From: Leptolyngbya sp. 'hensonii'
Lineage (GTDB): Bacteria; Cyanobacteriota; Cyanobacteriia; GCF-001939115
Reading direction: 5' to 3'
NCBI RefSeq assembly: GCF_001939115.1
Contig: NZ_MQTZ01000045.1
Span: 117,189 to 162,004 of the forward strand
Length of the DNA stretch: 44,816 bases
A program made the translations under genes and the position numbers. The notes beneath the pieces are model-generated. The model had not been told where the DNA came from. It ran no database searches and worked only from the letters and a program-made list of their open reading frames with translations. This document shows positions 13,468 through 41,001 of this stretch, piece after piece; within the stretch, counting starts at the first letter, position 1; each line of letters begins with the position of its first letter.

Positions 13468-15819
13468 TTATTGATTGGCCAACGCTCTTGGACGGTTGGA
13501 ACTCTGGGGTGGCATGCGGTGGCGATCGCTGAACCATTTCAATCCGAGCAGGATGGCAACCATCACCAGGGCGAGACCGATCAACCAGGCGATCGTGCTA
13601 CCAGGATGCTGATTGAAGGTCATGGACTGGTAGTAGAACACTGCTACCCAGTAGGCCAGCCCGGTGGTCCAGGCTCCGACAAAAGCTGTCCAGCCCAGAT
13701 TGGTTTCACGATAGACTGCGGCAGTGGCAGAGACACAGGGGAAGTAGAGCAGCACGAAGAGCAGGAAGGCGATCGCGGCGGTGGTACTGCCAAATCGAGT
13801 CGCCATTTGCCCAAAAGTGGTGTAGCTAACTTCCTGCGCTGCCGCTGCCGCCTGTTGATCACCCGTATCGTTCAGAATGCTGAGACCGATCGGGTCAAGC
13901 ACCTGATTGGTCAGATCTGCCAGATTCTTGGGAATGCTGGCGAAGGCTTCTCTAATGCCACCCCAAAAATCAAACGGTTCTGCTTCCTCACTGGTGCCGG
14001 ATGCCTGTTCTGCCAGTTGGGTATAAAGAGAATCCATCGTACCGACCATGACTTCCTTGGCGAACACCCCGGTCATTAATCCCACCGTCGCGGGCCAGTT
14101 CTCTTGCTGAATTCCCATTGGTGTGAACACGGGGGTAATGGTGCGGCTGAAGGCACTTAGAATCGAATCCTGGCTATTCTGTTTACCAAAAGAACCATCG
14201 ACCCCAACGGAGTTAATTAAGCCTAAAATCAACACCATCACGATAATCATGCGTCCAGCTTTGGTAATGAATGCCTTGAGCCGATCCCAGGCGCGAATCA
14301 GCACCCCTTTGATAGTGGGAATGTGGTACGGCGGTAATTCCATCACAAACGGGGCGGCCTCCCCCCGGAACAGGGTGCGTTTCATCACCAGGCCGGTAAA
14401 GACTGCTGCCAGGATGCCCAGAATGTAAAGTAAGAAAACGATGTTTTGTCCGTTAGTGGGGAAAAATGCGGCGCAAAAGAGCGCATACACCGGCAGACGG
14501 GCACCGCAAGACATAAACGGATTCATCAGGATGGTCATCAGGCGATCGCGCCGATTTTCCAGCGTCCGGGTTGCCATGATGCCCGGAATGTTGCAACCAA
14601 AGCCCACCATCATCGGGACAAAGGATTTGCCCGGAAGTCCAATAAACCGCATCAGCCGATCCATGACAAATGCAGCGCGGGCTAAATAGCCAGAATCCTC
14701 CAGGATGGAAAGGAAAATGAACAATAGACCAATTTGGGGAATAAAAGTGGACGTGGTTTGAATTCCGCCTCCGACGCCATCCGCCAACAGCCCAATCAAC
14801 CATCCGGGAGCCTTAATTTGCTCTAATAAATGAGCTGTTCCACCTACGAAAATGGTACCAACGCCAATATCAAAAAAATCAATAAACGCACCACCTAAGT
14901 TAATAGCAACGAGAAACATGAGATACATCACCACCAAAAAGATGGGAATTCCCAGCCACCGGTTGAGCACCACCCGATCGATGCGATCGGATAGCGTTTG
15001 TTTCACCACGTTCGTGCGCTCAGTAACACCCTGGATGATGTGCCGAATCCAGGTGTAGCGGCTATCAGCAATCAGTAAATCGGTATCTTCTCCCAGGGTT
15101 TGATGAATGCGGTGCCGATGCTCGGCAATCTGTCGCAGAGTGGACTGTCCCAGCTCTGGCAAGTGGCGATCGTCGTATTGCAATAAATTCAATGCAAACC
15201 AGCGAACATGGGCACGATTGGCGATTGCCCCTGCTTCCAGAGATGGCATTAAATCGGTCAGCGCTTCCTCAATCACGGGAGGATAAGCCACATAAGTACT
15301 GGGAATGGTGGGGTGCGTCAAAGCCTGATGCACTGCTTCTTTTAACTGCGGCACCCCTTTGCCAGTATGGGCACAGAGGGGAATCACTGGACATCCCAAT
15401 CGTTCAGACAATAACTGGGAATCGATGCGAATTTCCCGCTTTGCTGCCAGGTCCATCATGTTGAGGGCGATGATCATTGGCACACCGATCTCCAGAATCT
15501 GGGTCGTGAGATAGAGGTTCCGCTCCAGATTCGATGCATCCACGATGTTCACAATCACATTTGCCTCGCCAGACAGCAGATAATCCCGCGCCACCAGCTC
15601 ATCCAGGCCAGTGCTGGTGTCTTCCGCATCCACAGAATAGACACCGGGCAAATCAACCACTGTCACGGGTTGACCATGGGCACGGTAGCCGCCTTCCTTC
15701 CGCTCAACCGTCACACCGGGCCAGTTCCCGACACGCTGGTTGGCTCCGGTTAAGGCATTGAACAGTGTGGTTTTGCCACAGTTGGGGTTGCCGACCAGTC
15801 CGATCGTTGCCTGCTTCAT
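13468..15819 (-). CDS. feoB: Ferrous iron transport protein FeoB
   Basis: This is a full-length 783-aa FeoB. The N-terminal G-protein domain shows G1 GNPNCGKTTLFN (residues 10-21), G3 VVDLPG, and G4 NMMD. A GDI-like helical region follows, then a polytopic membrane domain with the conserved blocks FGCNIPGIMATRTLENRRDR and NPFMSCGARLPVYALF, and a second Gate domain including FAKEVMVGTMDSLY. It imports Fe(II) across the inner membrane in a nucleotide-dependent way. Its ATG overlaps the feoA stop (ATGA). A FeoC gene follows. No residue defects are visible. Confidence 0.95.
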   Translation of the reverse strand: MKQATIGLVGNPNCGKTTLFNALTGANQRVGNWPGVTVERKEGGYRAHGQPVTVVDLPGVYSVDAEDTSTGLDELVARDYLLSGEANVIVNIVDASNLERNLYLTTQILEIGVPMIIALNMMDLAAKREIRIDSQLLSERLGCPVIPLCAHTGKGVPQLKEAVHQALTHPTIPSTYVAYPPVIEEALTDLMPSLEAGAIANRAHVRWFALNLLQYDDRHLPELGQSTLRQIAEHRHRIHQTLGEDTDLLIADSRYTWIRHIIQGVTERTNVVKQTLSDRIDRVVLNRWLGIPIFLVVMYLMFLVAINLGGAFIDFFDIGVGTIFVGGTAHLLEQIKAPGWLIGLLADGVGGGIQTTSTFIPQIGLLFIFLSILEDSGYLARAAFVMDRLMRFIGLPGKSFVPMMVGFGCNIPGIMATRTLENRRDRLMTILMNPFMSCGARLPVYALFCAAFFPTNGQNIVFLLYILGILAAVFTGLVMKRTLFRGEAAPFVMELPPYHIPTIKGVLIRAWDRLKAFITKAGRMIIVMVLILGLINSVGVDGSFGKQNSQDSILSAFSRTITPVFTPMGIQQENWPATVGLMTGVFAKEVMVGTMDSLYTQLAEQASGTSEEAEPFDFWGGIREAFASIPKNLADLTNQVLDPIGLSILNDTGDQQAAAAAQEVSYTTFGQMATRFGSTTAAIAFLLFVLLYFPCVSATAAVYRETNLGWTAFVGAWTTGLAYWVAVFYYQSMTFNQHPGSTIAWLIGLALVMVAILLGLKWFSDRHRMPPQSSNRPRALANQ

Positions 15820-19189: not shown

Positions 19190-20761
19190 CTACATGATTC
19201 CCGATCGCCCAATTTCTAGAAGAATGAAGATGGCGAAAAGAATTCCACCTAATCCACCAATTAGGAAACCAGAGGTAAATTGGCTCCAGTCTTTATAGGT
19301 TTGCAAATTAGCTGGTAATTCACCTACGGGTTTACGGCTACCCTGAAAACCAGCATTGCCATACAGGAACAGGCAGACACTCAAAATTACGACCAAACCG
19401 GATGCACCACCCCATCCTCCCCACAGGGCAATGTCAGTATCACGCAATGGACCGAGTTTAAGGAATGGACCCAGCAGAAGATAGCCATGTACCATGCCAA
19501 TCTCTAGACCCCGCGTAATCGGCGATAGACCATGCCGATAAATCGGCAAATTTTTAATCCAACTGCGGGTGACATCACTACCATTGATCGGTGTGACTAA
19601 GTTGCCAATTTGGGGATTGTCTTGAGGGACTCGTACAATCCCTGCAAACAACGGTTCACTGCTGAACTGGGTATCTCCAAATCGTGCATTGGCACTAAAC
19701 TTCATTTTGCTAAAGACAAAGCCTGCGGCGATCGCCCGTGCCCTCAGGGCGTGCCAGAAATGACCAGCCAGCAGCAAACTGGCAAAGATGACATGGAACA
19801 ACATCAACCAAGTGCGTGGTGTGATCACCCCATCTACAGTTGTTGTGCCTGTGGGACCGTAGAACACTGAGGGATAGACGATATCGTTGATCCAAACAAA
19901 GTAAGCGGCAAAGAAGCCCATGTACGCTAACGCAGCTTGACTGTAAGAGAGATAAGCTTCCCCGGACCAGACAAATAAGCCTTTTGCCCATTTTGCTGGT
20001 TCAGTACAAATATGCCAGATCCCGCCGAGAATACATAGACTGCCAACCCAGATGTGGCCACCAACCACATCCTCCAGGTTGTTAACCGCTGCCATCCCCT
20101 TTAATGTCCAACCATTGGGGGCGATTCCCACCAAATAGCCAAAAATTGTCAGTGGATTCAGCGTGGGATTGGTAATGAGACGCACGCTAGAGATCGCCGG
20201 ATCATACAAACCACCGATAAACACGGCTTTCAGCACGAGCAATAATGCACCCACCCCCAGCAGCACCAGATGAATGCCCAGAATGGAGGTCATTTTGCGA
20301 CCATCTTCCCATTGATAGCCAAAACCCTTTTCATCCAACTTTTCGGGACCTAAGACAGCATGATAAATGCCACCTGCACCTAAAATTGCTGAACCAATCA
20401 GGTGAATCACACCGATCGCAAAGTAAGGATCGGGACTCATAATTTGCCCATTGGCTCCGACGCCGAAACCCAGACTTGCCAGATGGGGCAACAAAATTAA
20501 ACCCTGACCATACATGGGCAAGTTGGGATTAAATCGTGAGAGTTCAAACAGCGTCATGGCCCCTGCCCACAGCACAATCAGCCCTGCATGGGCAATATGG
20601 GCACCCAGCAATTTCCCTGACAAATTGGCAAAGCGTAAATTACCTGCCCACCAGGAATAGGGATCAACCGAATCTTGGACATAGCGAGTTTCAGGGGTAC
20701 TCCCCGGAAACTCCAACGAAGACACTGTCCGATTTGGGGATGGTATATCTGCGGTTGTCAT
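19190..20761 (-). CDS. IsiA-PsaL fusion: CP43'-type chlorophyll antenna joined to a PSI subunit XI domain
   Basis: Residues 40-355 form a six-helix IsiA/Pcb antenna with [60 protein letters not shown] and GHFWHALRA, holding the chlorophyll-ligand histidines. Residues 385-523 match Psa[61 protein letters not shown], then two further membrane helices. PsaL normally sits at the PSI trimer interface. The fusion could tether an antenna to PSI at the PsaL position. The start follows the preceding isiA stop by one base. Such fusions are known in some cyanobacteria. Confidence 0.93.
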
Positions 20762-20762
20762 G

Positions 20763-21794
20763 TTAGCTCACCTGCCCGCGTGGGGATGCAATCACTCGCC
20801 CTTCAACAAAGCTATAGCCTGCAGCTCGCAGGGCATGGAACAAGTGCCCCTGAAGGAAGAAAAAACCCAACCAGAAGTGGGCATTGGCTAACCAGACCCG
20901 CGAGGTTAACGTACCATCAACACTGGCAAACACTGGGAAGCGATCGAACTGAAGAATTAACGGGGAACCAAAAAATTCAGATGGAAAGACCGTCGTATTG
21001 ATGGAAACAAACAACGTAGCAATGAATGCCATCAAACTGACTGCCCCAATGCTGTAGGACAGATAGGCTTCCCCGGACCAGACCAACAATTTTTTTGCCC
21101 ACGGAAAGGGTTGGGTGCGAATGTGCCAAATGCCACCCAGAATGCACATCACACCCACCCAAATGTGACCCCCGACAACATCTTCCAGGTTATTCACACT
21201 GGCAATCCAAAACTTTCCTTGGGTGCCCAACAAATAGCTGAAGATCGGCACTGGATTTAAGGTTGGGTTGGTAATTAGCCGCACGTTGTGGATTGCTGGA
21301 TCGTAAAGTCCACCCCAGGCGATCGCCTTTGCTACCAGCAATAGTGCTCCAGTTCCTAACAGCATCAGATGAATACCTAGGATTGTCGTCATCTGGCTGG
21401 CATCATCCCAGCGATAGCCAAAGAATGGAAACTTATCTTCCAGTTTGCGGGGTCCTTTTAACACATGAAACAGTCCACCTGCACCCAAAAAGGCAGAGCT
21501 AATCAAATGGAGGACTCCAATCACAAAGTAAGGATAGGTGTCTCTAATCATCCCATTTTGTCCTACACCCAAACCTAATCGCACCAGATTGGGGAGCAAA
21601 ATCAGTCCTTGCTCAAACATCGGTTGAGCCGGATCAACGTTGGATAGTTCAATCAAGGTCATGGCTCCAACCCAAGCCACAATCAATCCGGCATGGGCAA
21701 TATGGGCACCCAATAACCATCCAGACAAGTTAACCAGACGAGCATTTCCCGCCCGCCAGGGAATTTGTGCCATTGTATCTGTCGCGATCGCCAT
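20763..21794 (-). CDS. isiA: Iron-stress chlorophyll-binding protein IsiA (CP43')
   Basis: The 343-aa, six-helix chlorophyll protein lacks the large lumenal loop of CP43, as IsiA does. Landmarks are [55 protein letters not shown] and a C-terminal [20 protein letters not shown]. That last block and the FPSEFFG loop are closest to the standard IsiA sequence, so I call this copy the main isiA. IsiA forms rings round photosystem I under iron limitation. The ATG at 21794 is preceded by AAGGAGAG. A longer frame to 21857 is unlikely. It lies 66 bases after the preceding isiA-like gene. Confidence 0.9.
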
Positions 21795-21860
21795 AGCGAT
21801 TCTCTCCTTCGTTGAAATTCGTGTGATCAATCCAAGGTGCAGCAGGTGAGTATTCAATCC

Positions 21861-22949
21861 CTATTTAGAGGGTTTAATTTGCAAACTGGCAGGAACGGTA
21901 AGCATCACATCCTTCGCTATATAGTCAAAGAAGGTCACGAATTGTAGTCCTCGCGTTGCGGCACGAGCGCGATAAGCATGCCAAATATGCCCTACTAGGG
22001 CCAGAAATCCTAATCCTGCATGAACGCTGGCTAACGCAGCACGGGTGGACTGGGTGATAGCATCCACATCTCCATAAAAGACACTGGGGTAAGCAATGTC
22101 ATTGACCGAGATAAAGCAAGCCACATTGAAGCCTGCGATCGCCAACGCACCCAGACTGTAGGAAAGATAAGCTTCTCCTGACCACACCAGGGCTTTCTTT
22201 GCCCAGTCCAAAGGCTGCGACACAATGTGGAAAATGCCACCTGCGATGCAGAGAACCCCTACCCAAACATGACCACCAATCACATCTTCCAGATTATTGA
22301 CGCTTGCCATGCCAGTCATCGTCCAGCCGTTGGGGCTAAAGCCAAGCAAATAGCCAAAGATGCAGGCTGGATTGAGGTTAGGCTGGATCAGCCGAACTCG
22401 CTCCATCAGCGGATCATAAACGCCACCCCAATGGGTCGCCTTCAGAACCAGTAATAATGCCCCAACCCCTAGCAACACAAGATGAATTCCTAAAATCGTG
22501 GTCATCTTCTTGCCATCCTGCCAGTTGTAGCCAAACCCTTTTTCATCCAGGATTTCAGGTCCTAGAACTGCATGGTAAATTCCCCCAGCCCCTAACACGG
22601 CTGAACTGATTAAATGCAGCATGCCGATTAGGTAATAGGGATAGGTATCGATGACTTGCCCACCCGCACCGATACCCAATCCAAGCGTGGCTAAATGGGG
22701 CAGCAGAATCAAATTCTGCTCCTGCATGGGCAAGCCTGGATTAAATCGAGACAGTTCAAATAAGGTCATTGCCCCTGCCCACAACATCATCAATCCAGCA
22801 TGGGCAATATGGGCACCCAATAGCCGTCCCGAAAGATTAATAAACTGGGCGTTACCTGCCAGTAATGGTGCCCCGGATTGTTGTGTGACTGCTTCAGAAG
22901 ACCAACCCAGCGCTCGCAGCAGCGGCTTCCAGAAAATGGCATCATTCAT
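21861..22949 (-). CDS. isiA-like: IsiA-family chlorophyll antenna protein, second paralog
   Basis: This 362-aa IsiA/Pcb protein resembles the antenna half of the IsiA-PsaL fusion more than the neighbouring isiA. Shared signs are the lumenal insertion [20 protein letters not shown], the [11 protein letters not shown] loop and near-identical [20 protein letters not shown]. It has an extra 30-residue N-terminus and a 20-residue C-terminal tail ([20 protein letters not shown]). The standard [16 protein letters not shown] block is changed to [18 protein letters not shown]. The start has a GAGG ribosome site and lies 12 bases after isiB. It probably binds a different place or complex than the main IsiA. 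Confidence 0.88.
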
Positions 22950-26887: not shown

Positions 26888-27874
26888 CTAGGCGGATTTT
26901 CTGCACTGGATCTGATAATCCTTGGGATTCATGCCAAATTTCTTCCGAAAGGCGATCGAGAAATAGCTCCGACTTTCAAACCCGATCGCAGTCGCGACTT
27001 CTGCCACCTTCAGCTCACCACTCGCAAGTAGCTGCCGTGCCTGTTCTAGGCGATAGTCATGTAAATAGCCAAACACAGTCGTGCCAAATACTTGTCGAAA
27101 ACCACGCTTTAGGGCATTGTCATTTACCCCGACCAATCGGGCCAGTTCCATCAGGGAGGGAGGATGGTTGATCCGTTGTATTAAAATCTTTCGGGCTGCA
27201 TGAATGCGATCGACCTCATCAAAGGGTAACGGCAGGGATGACAGACCCGATTTCTCCTGCTCCGTCATCAGCGCCAACAGTTCCAGAATTTTACTTTCCA
27301 GATACATCCGTTTGGTCAGTCCTTGGTAAGGGCAACCCAGTAATTGCCGTAAGGCAAGCTGCATCTCTGGTGTCACGACACCGTACCGATAAAAATATGA
27401 CTCCTCTAAACTCCGGAACAGGTGGGCCAGATCCGGTGGTACCTCCCCCCCTGTCATGACCATCGACTCATAGATACAGGGTGCGACGTGGATCTCCACT
27501 CGGAGGATTTGCTGGGTTGCAGACTCTTCGTACAACCCTCCTGATGCTAACCCTGTGCCACAGAACCAGTTCATTCCTGACCTGACAGCTTCTATTCCCC
27601 GATAGCGGTTGCATCCCTGCAACAAAAACCCCATCTGGATCGGATGGTGATGTTCTGGGATCTGGCGGGTCAGATCCTGATGCAATCGATAATCCTCGAT
27701 CGTCATATCAAACCCAGCCTGCCATTCAATTTTTCGATAAAAGCCGCGCCCCAACTCAGGCGGAATCCTAAATAGCCTGTCCAGAGGATCTGCAGGATCG
27801 ATCAGTTGTGGGGCTGGATTTGTTTTCTGCCATAGGGCATCACAGGCTGATTCAGAAATCGTCAGCGGGGGCAT
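26888..27874 (-). CDS. AraC-family regulator (PchR-like) of the first siderophore receptor
   Basis: The C-terminal third holds two HTH motifs of the AraC type: SLMELARLVGVNDNALKRGF and VAEVATAIGFESRSYFSIAF, followed by RKKFGMNPKDYQ. The N-terminal part is a cupin-like sensor domain, with HHHPIQMGFLLQGCN. PchR-type regulators sense a ferric siderophore and activate the receptor and import genes. The receptor starts about 100 bases downstream on the same strand. I prefer the ATG at 27874 (MPPLTISESACDALW) because the paralog at 34573 starts in the same way. The frame is open to 27940. Confidence 0.85.
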   Translation of the reverse strand: MPPLTISESACDALWQKTNPAPQLIDPADPLDRLFRIPPELGRGFYRKIEWQAGFDMTIEDYRLHQDLTRQIPEHHHPIQMGFLLQGCNRYRGIEAVRSGMNWFCGTGLASGGLYEESATQQILRVEIHVAPCIYESMVMTGGEVPPDLAHLFRSLEESYFYRYGVVTPEMQLALRQLLGCPYQGLTKRMYLESKILELLALMTEQEKSGLSSLPLPFDEVDRIHAARKILIQRINHPPSLMELARLVGVNDNALKRGFRQVFGTTVFGYLHDYRLEQARQLLASGELKVAEVATAIGFESRSYFSIAFRKKFGMNPKDYQIQCRKSA

Positions 27875-28006
27875 AAGATCTGCAAAGTTAAAGCACTTAT
27901 TGAAAGTATTTCTTAATTGATACCATGCTTTTACTGGCATTTGAACAGTTTGAGCCAGCCTATAAGTTCAGCCTATAATTTTGGACAGCGATGGCATTCC
28001 AGTCAG

Positions 28007-34551: not shown

Positions 34552-34593
34552 TTATCCCAGCCGGACTTTCTGTTATCCCAGCCGGACTTTTTG
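34552..34593. repeat. 21-bp tandem duplication at the end of the AraC gene
   Basis: Two adjacent 21-base copies (34552-34572 and 34573-34593) differ at one base. On the minus strand each encodes QKVRLG followed by TAA, so the second copy lies just after the stop. The effect is a duplicated C-terminus and stop codon, which does not lengthen the protein. Confidence 0.8.
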
Positions 34594-35616
34594 GGTGGAT
34601 CGTCCAGTCAGATAGGCGATCGGACTTTCCCCATACTTTTTCCGAAAAGCTTTGCTAAAGGAAGGCAGGCTACTATAGCCCACCCGGTGAGCTATCTCCG
34701 TTACACTCATGTCACCAGATTCCAACAATTGGCGGGATTGTTCCATCCGACAGTCATGTAAATACCCAAATACAGTTTTGCCAAAGAGTTGCAAGAAGCC
34801 TTGTTTGAGTTTGCGATCATTTAGCCCCACCTGTCGCGCCAGTTCCAAGAGAGAAGGGGGGTGGCTGATCTGTTGGATTAGAATAGCTTGTGCCTGGTGT
34901 AGACGATCAATATCATTCGATCGTAAGCGGATTGGGCAATCGGGTTTTGGAGAGAATTCTGTCCATTGAGCAAACTGCAAGGCCAATAACTCCAAGGCTT
35001 TTCCTTCCAAATACAGCTGTTGGATTAATCCCTGATAAGGGCAGGCCAAAATCTGTTGGAGAACCTGCACCATTGCAGGAGTCGTTTTGCCCAGTAATTG
35101 GTGAAAGGGCTGGATAGAATCTCTTTCAATCCATTGGTACAGCAGTTCGGGAAATAATCGATGATCCGAATGATCCGGTTTAAATTGCCTGAAGTAGTTG
35201 AGATCGGCATAGATCATAACGACTCGAATGGGTACCTGTGCTGGCCATTCCTCAACTTCGACTAGGTCAGGCAGATAGTAGAGATAGTTGTAGCCTGCCT
35301 TCTCCTGGTAATCGCTCTTGACCGTGGGAATATTCGCCGTACAAACCCTGGAGCAGCTGGAGAGAAAGAATTTTGAGGTTAAGGGGAAGGAACTTCCATG
35401 CTGTCGGATTAGGCGCAAATCCTCTCTCAATAAACAGTCCCGGATATCCAGAATGAGACCATTCCGCAGCAAGATGGTCTGCTCCCCTCCTACACCTAAC
35501 TGTTGAGGAAGATTAAGCCAACTCCCGGTAGATGTTGCATGATAAATCGCCTCCCCTTGCAATTGGGCAATTTCGTAGAGTTCATACCAATCCATCTCAC
35601 TCAGTACAATCGTCAT
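34573..35616 (-). CDS. AraC-family regulator (PchR-like) of the second siderophore receptor
   Basis: The 347-aa paralog of the regulator at 26888 has an N-terminal sensor part, then SLLELARQVGLNDRKLKQGF and VTEIAHRVGYSSLPSFSKAF as the two HTH motifs and RKKYGESPIAYL. The two regulators share CPYQGL(I/T), a LYLEGKALELLALQF-type helix and KTVFGYLHDCRMEQSRQLLE. It likely activates the receptor operon that starts 129 bases downstream when its ferric siderophore is bound. Start is the ATG at 35616. The C-terminus ends in a duplicated QKVRLG unit. Confidence 0.86.
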   Translation of the reverse strand: MTIVLSEMDWYELYEIAQLQGEAIYHATSTGSWLNLPQQLGVGGEQTILLRNGLILDIRDCLLREDLRLIRQHGSSFPLTSKFFLSSCSRVCTANIPTVKSDYQEKAGYNYLYYLPDLVEVEEWPAQVPIRVVMIYADLNYFRQFKPDHSDHRLFPELLYQWIERDSIQPFHQLLGKTTPAMVQVLQQILACPYQGLIQQLYLEGKALELLALQFAQWTEFSPKPDCPIRLRSNDIDRLHQAQAILIQQISHPPSLLELARQVGLNDRKLKQGFLQLFGKTVFGYLHDCRMEQSRQLLESGDMSVTEIAHRVGYSSLPSFSKAFRKKYGESPIAYLTGRSTQKVRLG

Positions 35617-36196: not shown

Positions 36197-37222
36197 ATGG
36201 TTAGTAAACGCTTTGAACTTAAGTTGGGATGCTCTCCAAGCGATCGGATTCTGCCCACCCTCGTCCTCCTCAGTGGTGGCCTGGTGGTCACGATCGCCCT
36301 ATCCCTTTGCCAGGGAACAATTCCACTGAGTCTGGCAGATTTGGGACAGGCCCTGGGGCACCGAGGCGAGCCCTTGTACCAGACCATCGTGTGGGACCTG
36401 AGACTTCCCAGGGTGATCGCAGCGTTGCTGGTAGGAGCTGCCCTGGGAATGTCTGGAGCCATGTTGCAGGGCATGCTGCGGAATGGACTGGCCGATCCTT
36501 TTGTGTTGGGGATCTCTGCCGGATCTGGCCTGGTGGCGATCGCCCTGATCAGCCTGAATGTGCTGCAAACTTGGGTGCCTCTGGGTGCCTGGATTGGCGC
36601 TCTCCTGACCGCTATACCCGTCTATGCCCTGGGCTCTATCGGGGGGGAATTGTCGATCGAACGGTTAATTCTGGCAGGGGTTGCCCTCAATGCCATGCTG
36701 AGTGCAATTCAGACCCTGTTTTTACTGTTGGCTGATGATGGACGGCTACAAGTCGCTCTGAACTGGCTGATCGGCAGTTTAAACGGACGGGGCTGGTCAG
36801 AGGTCATGATGGCGGGTCCCTACGTGGGCATGGCCCTGGTGGCCGGGTGTCTGCTGGCCCGCCCTCTGAATTTACTGGCCCTGGGGGATGATCTGGCGGT
36901 GGGTTTAGGAGCCTCTCTGGTGAGATCGCGGCTGTTGATGGGGGCAGTGGCCAGTTTACTGGCCGCCAGCGCTGTCAGTATTGCCGGATTAATTGGCTTT
37001 GTCGGACTGGTCATTCCCCATGGGGTTCGGTTACTGGTGGGGTCCGATTACCGCTGGATCTTACCCTGCTCTGCCCTGGGAGGAGCCTGGGTGTTAATCC
37101 TGGCCGATCTCCTCTCCCGCATGGGGGCGATCGAGCTGCCCGTGGGAGCTGTTACCGCATTACTGGGTTCCCCCTGCTTTATCTGGCTTCTGTATCAGCG
37201 TCGTAGGGAGGTGGGTCGATGA
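36197..37222 (+). CDS. FecCD-family permease of the haem-type importer
   Basis: From the ATG at 36197 the product is 341 aa with about ten membrane segments and the family blocks LRLPRVIAALLVGAALGMSG, LQGMLRNGLADPFVLGISAG, VSIAGLIGFVGLVIPHGVRL and ELPVGAVTALLGSPCFIWLL. Only one permease gene is present, so it probably works as a homodimer, as haem and cobalamin permeases (HmuU, BtuC) do. The frame extends to 36080 into the MITE and is not credible there. The stop overlaps the next start by four bases (ATGA). Confidence 0.88.
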   Translation: MVSKRFELKLGCSPSDRILPTLVLLSGGLVVTIALSLCQGTIPLSLADLGQALGHRGEPLYQTIVWDLRLPRVIAALLVGAALGMSGAMLQGMLRNGLADPFVLGISAGSGLVAIALISLNVLQTWVPLGAWIGALLTAIPVYALGSIGGELSIERLILAGVALNAMLSAIQTLFLLLADDGRLQVALNWLIGSLNGRGWSEVMMAGPYVGMALVAGCLLARPLNLLALGDDLAVGLGASLVRSRLLMGAVASLLAASAVSIAGLIGFVGLVIPHGVRLLVGSDYRWILPCSALGGAWVLILADLLSRMGAIELPVGAVTALLGSPCFIWLLYQRRREVGR

Positions 37223-38046
37223 TCCTGGAGGCTCGAAACCTGACGGGAGGATATGCAGATTGCCCGATCGTGCGGGATATTAATCTGTCCCTGGAACCGG
37301 GAGAATGGCTCAGTCTGGTAGGGGCGAACGGATCTGGAAAGTCTACCTTGCTACGCCTGTGCAGCCGGATTCTCCTGCCCCAGGGAGGCACTGTCCTGTT
37401 GGATGGAAAGGCCATTCATACCCAGTCCGCCCGATCGGTGGCGCGGCAACTGGCGATTTTACCCCAGCAGCAACCAATTCCAGCAGGGTTGACGGTGCGG
37501 CAACTGGTGAGTCTGGGGCGGACTCCCCACCAACATCGGTGGCAGTGGGAGCTGGATCAGGCGGATCGACAACAGATTGAACGGGCGATCGCCCAAACCG
37601 ATCTGGAAGCCCTAGCCAATCGCCCGGTGGAGCAACTTTCGGGGGGAGAACGGCAGCGAGTGTTTCTGGCCCTAACCCTGGCCCAGGATCCACAGATTTT
37701 ACTGCTGGATGAACCGACCACCTTTCTGGATCTGCATCACCAGTTGGAACTGCTGGAATTGCTCAAACACCTGAATCAGCAGCGGCAACTGACCCTGATC
37801 ACGGTGCTCCATGATGTTAATCTGGCAGCCCGGTACAGCGATCGGATGGCCATGCTCACCCAGGGACATATCACCGCTATCGGGACTCCCAGAGAAGTGA
37901 TGACGCCTGATCATTTACGCCAGGTGTTTGGAGTTGAAGCAATCCTGCTGAATACACCCGTGGGATTACAGGTTTGTTTGCTGTCTCCAACGCCAACCTG
38001 GCCCCGGAGTCGGGATGGCCCTGGTGTTCTCACCCTGCATGCATGA
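37219..38046 (+). CDS. ABC transporter ATP-binding protein of the haem-type importer
   Basis: The 275-aa ABC ATPase has Walker A GANGSGKST (residues 35-43), signature LSGGERQRVFLALTLAQ, Walker [13 protein letters not shown] and switch region ITVLHDVNLA. Its first half matches HmuV/FecE-type ATPases of iron, haem or cobalamin import. The ATG overlaps the permease stop. The gene is followed by about 250 bases with two hairpins and then by the receptor, so the receptor may have its own promoter. Confidence 0.88.
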   Translation: MILEARNLTGGYADCPIVRDINLSLEPGEWLSLVGANGSGKSTLLRLCSRILLPQGGTVLLDGKAIHTQSARSVARQLAILPQQQPIPAGLTVRQLVSLGRTPHQHRWQWELDQADRQQIERAIAQTDLEALANRPVEQLSGGERQRVFLALTLAQDPQILLLDEPTTFLDLHHQLELLELLKHLNQQRQLTLITVLHDVNLAARYSDRMAMLTQGHITAIGTPREVMTPDHLRQVFGVEAILLNTPVGLQVCLLSPTPTWPRSRDGPGVLTLHA

Positions 38047-38079
38047 ACAGAACCGGAGCGATCGAGGGGGAATAAAAAA

Positions 38080-38103
38080 CAGGGCAAGCACCAACTTGCC
38101 CTG
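38080..38103 (-). terminator. Intrinsic terminator-like hairpin facing the minus strand
   Basis: Arms CAGGGCAAG and CTTGCCCTG (9 bp) enclose loop CACCAA. Upstream on the plus strand is AATAAAAAA, so on the minus strand the stem is followed by TTTTTTATT, a classical terminator. Both flanking genes are on the plus strand, so it would end a minus-strand transcript, not either gene. A second hairpin with the same loop lies at 38243. Confidence 0.6.
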
Positions 38104-38242
38104 GATCAATCGACATTGAATCGACTTCTCTATCATAGAAAATTCGATCCCGTTCAGTCCGATCGATTCCTGCTGGTCTGTAATGATTGACGATCGGTTC
38201 ACTGTGTTGATCCAGTGCACCTGATGACGCAAACAAGATCAA

Positions 38243-38262
38243 CAGCAAGCACCAACTTGCTG
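38243..38262. other. Hairpin sharing its loop and stem core with the hairpin at 38080
   Basis: Arms CAGCAAG and CTTGCTG (7 bp) enclose the same CACCAA loop. The common unit GCAAGCACCAACTTGC is 16 bases, identical in both places 160 bases apart. It lies 33 bases before the receptor ATG. It may be a repeated regulatory hairpin or a duplicated repeat. No T-run follows on either strand. Confidence 0.55.
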
Positions 38263-38295
38263 CCCGCGTAAAAAGACATTGAAATCGATACGGCC

Positions 38296-41001
38296 ATGAA
38301 ATATTTCCTCCTATTGAACAGTGTGTTCCTGATCCTGTTATCTATGCCTGTGGCAAGTGGGGACGCAAAAACGATCGGGCCTCATGAGATCACAGCCTCT
38401 GAAACAGATCAATCGCTTGCTTTCAATCCACCGGTGACAGCCCTCCAGGAAGGGGTAGATCCCAGGCCAATGGCAGAGAGGCAAGGGGTGGTCCAGGTAA
38501 CCCAGGTGCAGTTAGATAGCACGGAGACGGGACTGAACATCACTCTGGCAACCGCAGATGGAACGCCACTGCAGATTGAGATTGCCCGATTTAGCAAAGA
38601 TGGTAATGCACTGGTGGCTGAGATTCCCAATGCAGTCCTGGCTTTACCAGAAGGTAATACCTTTCAGCGCACTGACCCCATCCCAGGAATTGCCCTTGTC
38701 AAGCTGTTGTCCCTGAATGCGACAACGATTCAAATCAGAGTTGTCCGATCTGAAACGGCTCCAGTCCCAACAGTGACCCTGAGCAACAGCGGAATCCTCT
38801 ACAGTCTCGATCCAGAAACCGACGATCAAACTGCTGAGGGGGAAGAGGAGGAAATCACGGTCACGGGAACGCGAACCCCCCGACCCACACGCCTCACGCC
38901 TGCTTCGATCTCCGTGATTGATGAGCGAGAAATTGATGAATTTCTGGTCCGGGATCTGCGGGATGTGTTTCGCTACGAACCCAACATCTCCGTCGGCAAC
39001 GATCGGCGCTATGGGTTGCAGGACATCAATATCCGGGGTTTGGGTGGGAATCGAGTCCTGATTCTGAATGACGGGATTCGTGTTCCCAACCAGTTTCAAT
39101 TTGGAACTCCCTCCCTGGGGCGAGATTATGTCGATCTTGAAACCTTGCAACGGATCGAGGTGGTTCGTGGTCCTGCTTCCGCTCTTTACGGCAGTGATGC
39201 ACTCGGTGGTGTGGTCAGTTTCAGGACGATCGACCCTGGGGATTTGCTCAATCGGATTCCAGGACAATCCGTTGTCACCAGCTTGTCAGCAAACGTGGAG
39301 ACGGTTGATCGCAGCTCCGTCTTCACCGGGATTGTGGCCTTTCGGGAGGGAGATCTGGAGGGGCTACTCGGCTACACCCGCCGAGATGGATCTGAAGCGC
39401 GTGTCCCCACGGGGAATGAGTTTGTGGATGCCCGCTCCAATGCCCGGAATAATGGGTTGGGCAAGCTGATTTACCGGTTGAATGACACCAGTAAAATTGG
39501 GTTTACTGCTGAGTTTTTCAGAAACGAAGATGACTTTACCGTTGCACCCATCACGGCAGCCAGTCTGATCGGACCCACTGGCTTCCGGGGGCAGAATGAA
39601 ACGCTGGAAAACAATACTTCCCGCGATCGTTTCAGTCTCTTCTATCTCTTTGACGATCCCAACGGTAGCAGTTTTCTGAATGCCGCCCGGATCCAGGTGT
39701 ACTATCAGAACGCTGAAGTGAATGAGGTCCGGACTCAGGACTTTGTGCGCACAGGCGCTGGGGTAGACCGTCGGCGTCTCAGGAACTTGCAGAATACGTT
39801 TCTCGATCGCACCGTCGGTGCTGAAGTTCAGCTCCAAAGTCGCTTCAATCTTGATACCGTCGTCAATCAATTAACCTATGGGGTGGATATTTCCAGCACC
39901 CGGAATGAGCGGGTTCGCAACGGTTTGGAAAGCCGGTTTAATGCAGCCGGTCTCCCCATTTTGACGACAAACGTGATCGGGGCCGACAACTTCCCGGTCA
40001 AGGATTTTCCCGACTCAGACACCTTTCGTCTCGGTCTTTATATCCAGGATGAGATTGCCCTGGACAATACGCTGACCCTAATTCCTGGGGTCCGCTTTGA
40101 TGTCTATCAGTTGAGTACCCAAATTGATGCCCTCTATCTGCGCAATCCTGGGGCAACTGCCGCCAACTTTAGCGACTCCGCCCTCTCTCCCAACCTGGGC
40201 GTTGTCTGGCGAGCGACGCCAGAACTGGCGATCGTGGGGCGTTATGCCCGTGGTTTCCGAGCCCCCCTGTATAACGAAATCAACTCTGGGTTTACGAACC
40301 TAACCAGTCCAACCTTTCGATACAAGACCCTCTCCAATCCTAATCTGCGACCGGAAACCAGCGATACCTTCGAAGTGGGAGTGCGGGGAGCCTATCCTCA
40401 GTTCAACTTCAGCCTGACTGGGTTTTACAACAGCTATGACAACTTCATTGAGGCTTTTGCCCCAGCGGGGATTGATCTCACCCTCGTACCAGGGTTTCCA
40501 GTCAATCTGTTTCAGACCCAAAACGTTGCTCGTGCCCGCACCTATGGCTTTGAGTTGAGCGGAGAATACCGCTTCAGTCCGCAGGCAGATGGGTTCAGCC
40601 TAATTGCTGGGTTGGGATTAACCGTGGGAGACAACTTAACCACCAATCAACCCCTGGAAAGTGTGGACCCGTTTAAGGCCGTGGTCGGTTTCCGTTATCG
40701 TGCGCCAGAAAACCTCTGGGGAGCTGATCTGATAGCAACCTTTGCCGCCCAACCTCGCCTCAGGGATAACCGTCCCCTCGGTTCCTATACCCCCCAGGGA
40801 TATACCGTCGTTGATCTGATCGGGTACTACAACATCACCCCATTGATCACCCTCAATTTGGGGGTATTCAATTTGCTCAATGATCAATATTTCCTCTACT
40901 CCGATGTTCGTCCCCTGATTAATTCCCCCACCCCTGCGGACATCGCTCGCTTTGCTCAGCCAGGAATCAGCCTGAGGGCCGGGATAACCTGGCGATTCTA
41001 G
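38296..41001 (+). CDS. TonB-dependent receptor of the haem-receptor type, with AMIN domain
   Basis: The 901-aa protein has a signal peptide (MKYFLLLNSVFLILLSM), an AMIN domain (about 60-180, GVVQVTQVQLDSTETGLNIT), TonB-box-like EEEEITVTGTRTPR, and plug motifs INIRGLGGNRVLILNDGIR and RIEVVRGPASALYGSDALGG like haem/haemoglobin receptors. In the barrel are the FRAP box (RGFRAPLYNE, about residue 653) and the NPNL box (SNPNLRPETS, about 680), known marks of haem receptors. The histidine usually conserved between them is absent here. The barrel ends in ITWRF. The substrate could be haem or another ligand. The context (single permease, HmuV-like ATPase, binding lipoprotein) also fits haem. Confidence 0.88.
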   Translation: MKYFLLLNSVFLILLSMPVASGDAKTIGPHEITASETDQSLAFNPPVTALQEGVDPRPMAERQGVVQVTQVQLDSTETGLNITLATADGTPLQIEIARFSKDGNALVAEIPNAVLALPEGNTFQRTDPIPGIALVKLLSLNATTIQIRVVRSETAPVPTVTLSNSGILYSLDPETDDQTAEGEEEEITVTGTRTPRPTRLTPASISVIDEREIDEFLVRDLRDVFRYEPNISVGNDRRYGLQDINIRGLGGNRVLILNDGIRVPNQFQFGTPSLGRDYVDLETLQRIEVVRGPASALYGSDALGGVVSFRTIDPGDLLNRIPGQSVVTSLSANVETVDRSSVFTGIVAFREGDLEGLLGYTRRDGSEARVPTGNEFVDARSNARNNGLGKLIYRLNDTSKIGFTAEFFRNEDDFTVAPITAASLIGPTGFRGQNETLENNTSRDRFSLFYLFDDPNGSSFLNAARIQVYYQNAEVNEVRTQDFVRTGAGVDRRRLRNLQNTFLDRTVGAEVQLQSRFNLDTVVNQLTYGVDISSTRNERVRNGLESRFNAAGLPILTTNVIGADNFPVKDFPDSDTFRLGLYIQDEIALDNTLTLIPGVRFDVYQLSTQIDALYLRNPGATAANFSDSALSPNLGVVWRATPELAIVGRYARGFRAPLYNEINSGFTNLTSPTFRYKTLSNPNLRPETSDTFEVGVRGAYPQFNFSLTGFYNSYDNFIEAFAPAGIDLTLVPGFPVNLFQTQNVARARTYGFELSGEYRFSPQADGFSLIAGLGLTVGDNLTTNQPLESVDPFKAVVGFRYRAPENLWGADLIATFAAQPRLRDNRPLGSYTPQGYTVVDLIGYYNITPLITLNLGVFNLLNDQYFLYSDVRPLINSPTPADIARFAQPGISLRAGITWRF

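Follow-up and report, generated by a model that had tools for sequence, protein, structure and literature searches.

The window, by which is meant the whole 44,816-nt stretch of Leptolyngbya sp. 'hensonii' DNA that was analysed, contains two plus-strand iron-uptake genes separated by a short gap, and the features considered here lie in and around that gap:

37219..38046, plus strand: FecE-like ABC ATPase (PF00005; best NCBIfam match FecE, under that equivalog's cut-off)
38071..38079, minus strand: T6ATT tail of the terminator, read from the sequence
38080..38103, minus strand: terminator hairpin, its stem and loop kept in five families
38074..38125, minus strand: predicted 52-nt antisense small RNA GUCGAUUCAAUGUCGAUUGAUCCAGGGCAAGUUGGUGCUUGCCCUGUUUUUU, between the -10 box and the T-run and conserved in related copies, with a presumptive 5' end
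38109..38125, minus strand: 5' hairpin GUCGAU-UCAAU-GUCGAU, predicted from the window sequence alone, and also the segment proposed to pair just upstream of the receptor start codon
38130..38152, plus strand: decayed receptor start, ATCATAGAAAATTCGATCCCG for ATCATATGAAATTTCATCCC, seen in alignment with relatives and followed by no open frame
38132..38137, minus strand: predicted -10 box TATGAT of the small RNA, kept in all T-tailed f23, g9 and window copies
38243..38263, plus strand: leader hairpin CAGCAAG-CACCAA-CTTGCTG, predicted target of the terminator hairpin and loop, with compensatory stem changes relative to copy 1
38274..38290, plus strand: leader segment AGACAUUGAAAUCGAUA, complementary to the RNA 5' end and 5 nt upstream of the ATG
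38296..41001, plus strand: TonB-dependent haem/haemoglobin-type receptor, the predicted target gene (TIGR01785 and TIGR01786 above cut-off; Plug and beta-barrel domains)

The original prediction was right about the flanking genes: the upstream one is a FecE-like ATPase and the downstream one a TonB receptor that scores 402 bits against the haem/haemoglobin receptor model NCBIfam TIGR01785 (cut-off 317). Both belong to a dense iron cluster (8464-42387) holding several FecCD/FecE/FecB-type transport genes, at least three TonB receptors, an isiA cluster, two AraC-type regulators (26888-27940 and 34573-35616) and a FeoB-like gene (13468-15819). Three plus-strand matches to the antisense RNA IsrR (Rfam RF01419, 102-121 bits) at 20134-20311, 21233-21410 and 22349-22523 each sit within a different member of a tandem set of three minus-strand isiA/CP43'-like genes (19190-22949), the isiA-IsrR pair being triplicated.

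Read on the minus strand, positions 38103-38071 consist of CAGGGCAAGTTGGTGCTTGCCCTG followed by TTTTTTATT, that is, a hairpin (38103-38080) with a 10-bp stem containing one wobble pair, a tetraloop and the adjoining T6ATT tail. No T-run follows this hairpin on the plus strand and no plausible minus-strand gene ends at it, the two open reading frames that cross it (72 and 88 aa) being mechanical frames; sequence and reading-frame check agree with the earlier claim of a hairpin that is T-tailed on the minus strand only and ends no gene. The 16-base unit said to be shared by two hairpins was likewise found, GCAAGCACCAACTTGC occurring identically at 38084-38099 (copy 1) and 38245-38260 (copy 2), with no third site in the 5.94-Mb genome when one mismatch is allowed. 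A dispersed repeat or mobile element was rejected, as the genome holds only these two copies and relatives carry the element at receptor starts. The 204-nt minus strand folds better than 200 of 200 shuffles (z -4.3), and the stable GC-rich hairpin with a U-run at the 3' end is as expected of an intrinsically terminated small RNA gene. A simple terminator scan yielded 3 matches against 1.5 expected in 2 kb, which alone is not significant, so that the significance of the hairpin rests on its conservation. A 13-nt inverted repeat (92%) links 38097-38109 in copy 1 with 38207-38219 in the receptor leader, so that a sequence much like part of the small RNA (TTGATCCAG) stands on the receptor strand, possibly by chance.

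A first search of the intergenic DNA against 95 relatives recovered the same sequence in other genera. With model R1, run on 388 genomes of the class and with ordinary terminators discarded by eye, a conserved element of about 75 bp was found in 25 copies from 19 of the 388 cyanobacterial genomes, representing five families. Inspection by eye assigned three weak hits (L056, L059, L066) to the ordinary terminators of unrelated genes; these, and one hit with E = 0.001 (L072), were left out of this count. A second model (R2), run at family, genus and order level, added no genomes beyond the 19. Twenty-two copies immediately precede an intact TonB-receptor gene of one of two paralogue types, overlapping or abutting its start, and three are detached (38074-38137 in the window, L032:4682-4755 in genome G008 and L031/L062 in genome G075). 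The G075 copy (L031 4360-4470, minus strand) is a full element with -10 box, hairpins and T-run, followed by about 45 codons left of a frameshifted receptor. Among the cases examined, receptors less than about 60% identical mostly lack the element, a single f26 receptor that has it being the exception. In genus g23 the antisense element and an ATGAAA start precede a second, different type of TonB receptor (L042, L043, L045, L046, L049 and L061), and the element is thus shared between receptor paralogues.

Every non-diverged copy presents the same order on the antisense strand, namely a -10 box, six variable bases, a conserved stretch of 14-32 nt, the terminator and a T-run, giving predicted RNAs of 41-59 nt. 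The -10 box is TATGAT, or CATACT in families f15 and f26, at a fixed distance from the RNA (the six variable nucleotides), and most f15 and f26 copies read TTGAAY-N17-CATACT, with TTGAAY as a -35 assigned by eye. The family terminator, GGGCAAGU-UGGC-GCUUGCCC, is the best conserved part of the element, and nothing is conserved past the T-run. In 23 of the 25 copies at least six of the nine receptor-strand nucleotides next to the stem are A, the exceptions being those at 38243 and L032:800. In one genus, no nine-codon stretch of the receptor gene is as conserved at synonymous sites as the first nine codons after the ATG (97% vs 58%, rank 1 of 873); the constraint is weaker in f15 and f26 (rank 13 of 798) and was not reproduced in the second group of receptors (rank 116 of 511). 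Constraint at the start of a gene is in any case frequent, and a test that is strong in one group and not reproduced in another provides only minor support.

The strand on which this structure is conserved was assessed by applying the two-hairpin structure of the window RNA to 13 distinct copies, which came from f23, G008 and the window itself. All 181 of 181 cells are paired on the antisense strand (148 Watson-Crick and 33 G-U), whereas the same positions on the receptor strand give 148 of 181 Watson-Crick pairs, no G-U and 33 A-C mismatches. Since every one of the 33 G-U cells becomes an A-C mismatch on the receptor strand, the conserved RNA is read as the antisense one. Slid controls of the structure gave 32-46% paired cells; a shuffle control is uninformative because the changes are one-sided, and the argument rests on the strand comparison. 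Across the whole family, five of the six departures within the terminator stem are G-U on the antisense strand only and none is G-U on the receptor strand; the sixth, an outer-pair T-T in L032:800, fits neither. More than half of the copies come from one genus, so these events are not all independent; counted by column and lineage the independent ones are few, roughly seven or eight, and all that discriminate favour the antisense strand. Such conserved secondary structure on the transcribed strand is a mark of a small RNA gene, and the claim of a minus-strand small RNA ended by the 38080 hairpin is supported, its strand fixed by the wobble-pair evidence from the 13 distinct copies.

The same data bear on whether the hairpin might act instead in the 5' leader of the receptor mRNA, through translation, stability or protein binding, with copy 1 as a leftover duplicate and no antisense RNA. 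Such a role would suit the 22 of 25 copies in which the ATG follows the element directly, and the compensatory stem changes at 38243 and L032:800 preserve the sense-strand hairpin as well. The 33 conserved antisense G-U cells, however, are A-C mismatches on the sense strand; the A-run conserved 5' of the stem, whose complement is the terminator tail, has to our knowledge no sense-strand role; and the -10 box persists in copy 1 despite the loss of the ATG there. We regard a sense-strand leader element as unlikely. A DNA operator, in the form of an inverted repeat bound by a dimer, is unlikely too, since the arms vary compensatorily and the loop is constant (L032:800 and 38243).

Taken together, the copies make it fairly probable that minus-strand positions 38125-38074 encode a regulatory RNA of about 52 nt, a member of a conserved cyanobacterial family that, as the sequences show, normally lies antisense across the translation start of a TonB-receptor gene. 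The predicted 52-nt RNA has a minimum free energy of -22.9 kcal/mol and folds into the terminator and, before it, a small 5' hairpin (38109..38125), which relatives preserve through exchanges among G-U, A-U and G-C that suit the minus strand only. The transcript of about 190 nt from near 38265 that had been proposed to carry both copies of the 16-base unit was rejected: the element spans only about 75 bp, its conserved unit of about 52 nt starts just after the TATGAT box (38137-38132), and copy 2 is without a -10 box and T-tail. The TATGAT box is retained in copy 1 although the receptor ATG that it overlaps has been lost there, and the decayed start at this point suggests that a receptor start formerly adjoined copy 1. 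No good -35 precedes the box, a poor match being the best available, and a promoter scan of 37000-39000 returned no sigma-70 promoter. Comparison by eye with the published FurA-box consensus, which is that of Anabaena (PMC4005646), revealed no convincing FurA box at the predicted promoter. The predicted RNA is convergent with the FecE-like ATPase gene (37219..38046).

Copy 2 differs from copy 1 in its stem (CAGCAAG/CTTGCTG for GGGCAAG/CTTGCCC) while the 16-base core is identical, and the leader around it (38243-38295) retains GACATTGAAATCGA. With neither an antisense -10 box nor a T-run, and matching the receptor's own leader, the 38243-38263 hairpin is likely to be the target of the RNA and not a part of it. 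The element is split in the window: the receptor leader has lost the antisense -10 box and terminator though not the segments for pairing, and the duplicate copy 161 bp upstream keeps the -10 box, RNA and terminator without a receptor start, lying about 170 nt upstream of the receptor ATG and antisense to the leader side. G008 is split alike, its RNA copy standing behind a substrate-binding-protein gene about 4 kb off and its receptor leader rebuilt as GATCAG-CGCCAA-CTGATC.

The earlier proposal that the RNA is antisense to the haem-receptor leader is matched by the complementarity found, the duplex of window RNA and receptor leader being predicted at -51.0 kcal/mol with none of 1000 shuffles as good. 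The 5' tail alone gives -17.5 kcal/mol, only mildly better than shuffles (21 of 1000 as good or better). In G008 the detached RNA and its own receptor leader give -45.9 kcal/mol, and the tail alone is matched or beaten by 1 of 1000 shuffles. Common ancestry of the copies accounts for part of this complementarity. A cis-antisense RNA of a TonB receptor may have come loose in these two genomes, the present one and G008, and become trans-acting, a suggestion we advance tentatively.

If copy 1 were an inactive remnant left by duplication of a receptor 5' end, the family could still be real elsewhere, and both the decayed receptor start beside copy 1 and the G075 copy (L031), which likewise precedes a frameshifted receptor remnant, are compatible with such decay. 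What copy 1 has kept, however, is exactly the set of RNA features (-10 box, 5' hairpin, terminator and T6), with the ATG and coding part gone; it is the functional receptor's own leader that is without those features, and G008 shows the same split at a different place. We regard a dead relic as unlikely, and as somewhat less credible still than a sense-strand element. That the hairpin serves to stop antisense read-through from the receptor gene toward the fecE side, with no dedicated small RNA, would be in keeping with the terminator being the best conserved part and with the frequency of antisense transcription in cyanobacteria (PMC6202907), but the 20-30 nt upstream of it and the -10 box are also conserved, with a structure that fits the antisense strand only, and conservation ends at the T-run, making this highly improbable.

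If the antisense RNA is made, then in most genomes its promoter would lie at the receptor start codon and the RNA would run back over the leader to the U-tailed terminator, which would render it perfectly complementary to the ribosome-binding region of the receptor. In the window, transcription would begin at about 38125 and terminate at about 38074. The detached RNA would meet the receptor mRNA through a loop-loop contact of UUGGUG with CACCAA, and its 5' segment would pair with 38274-38290, five bases before the ATG. Such pairing would lower translation of the receptor or stability of its mRNA, and we infer that the small RNA controls the haem receptor, probably holding its level down when iron or haem suffices, although both the direction and the signal are guesses.

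Control of haem and iron receptors has so far been seen to centre on FurA, IutR/PchR-type activators, IsrR and IsaR1. A family of small antisense RNAs, if transcribed, would add a post-transcriptional layer to that control in several cyanobacterial families, and the two genomes in which a detached RNA accompanies a bare target leader would provide a concrete case of a cis-antisense RNA turning trans-acting. No Rfam family covers the element: the only matches, to DapZ (RF02551; 20.3 bits, terminator-driven, against a gathering score of 56 bits) and isrO, fall far under threshold, and a known family was rejected. No paper describing it was found in an open-access subset of the literature, and it may have been described elsewhere in print.

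Among known RNAs, IsrR is, like the candidate described here, associated with iron in cyanobacteria, being an iron-stress antisense RNA with three copies in the window, but it is about 177 nt long, internal to isiA and different in sequence and structure; it has no match at 37950-38400, its only matches in the window falling at 20134-22523. IsaR1, an iron-stress sRNA of Synechocystis (PMC6202907), is likewise small (68 nt), iron-related, cyanobacterial and, as proposed for the detached copies, trans-acting. It is reported to be conserved in cyanobacteria, whereas the element was found with model R1 in 19 of 388 genomes, short of such broad conservation, and is tied to TonB receptors, so that the two are set apart by description. 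RusT of Caulobacter is a small RNA that responds to iron and, when expressed, reduces the mRNAs of several TonB-dependent receptors (PMC11005374); unlike the element, it is among the Hfq-bound RNAs of an alphaproteobacterium and has many receptors as its trans targets, and the part of that account available reports no cis-antisense arrangement. Nearer in arrangement is sll1206-as1 (as-fhuA) of Synechocystis, an antisense RNA to a TonB receptor; in the published table iron loss brings its level down and that of the receptor up, and the authors suggested fine-tuning of the base level (PMC3516471). The likeness, antisense to a cyanobacterial TonB receptor, is one of description, as the accessible portion of the source gives neither start-codon position nor structure, and from that portion no homologue of the element can be assigned to it.

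By analogy, the closest known system is the DonS family of Bacteroides, short cis-antisense RNAs divergent to TonB-receptor genes (susC homologues) at many loci, which are reported to lower expression of the receptor operons (PMC7366714, PMC11697453). The cyanobacterial element shares the antisense, divergent placement at the 5' end of a TonB-receptor gene (22 of 25 copies), in its case known from sequence. It belongs to another phylum, and its predicted RNAs of 41-59 nt are shorter than the 78-128 nt of DonS; a relation in sequence is not expected across phyla, and DonS is likened to it by description, as a system that works in a similar way. DonS RNAs accompany glycan systems, whereas the cyanobacterial element accompanies iron and haem uptake, and it is in the latter that the detached copy occurs.
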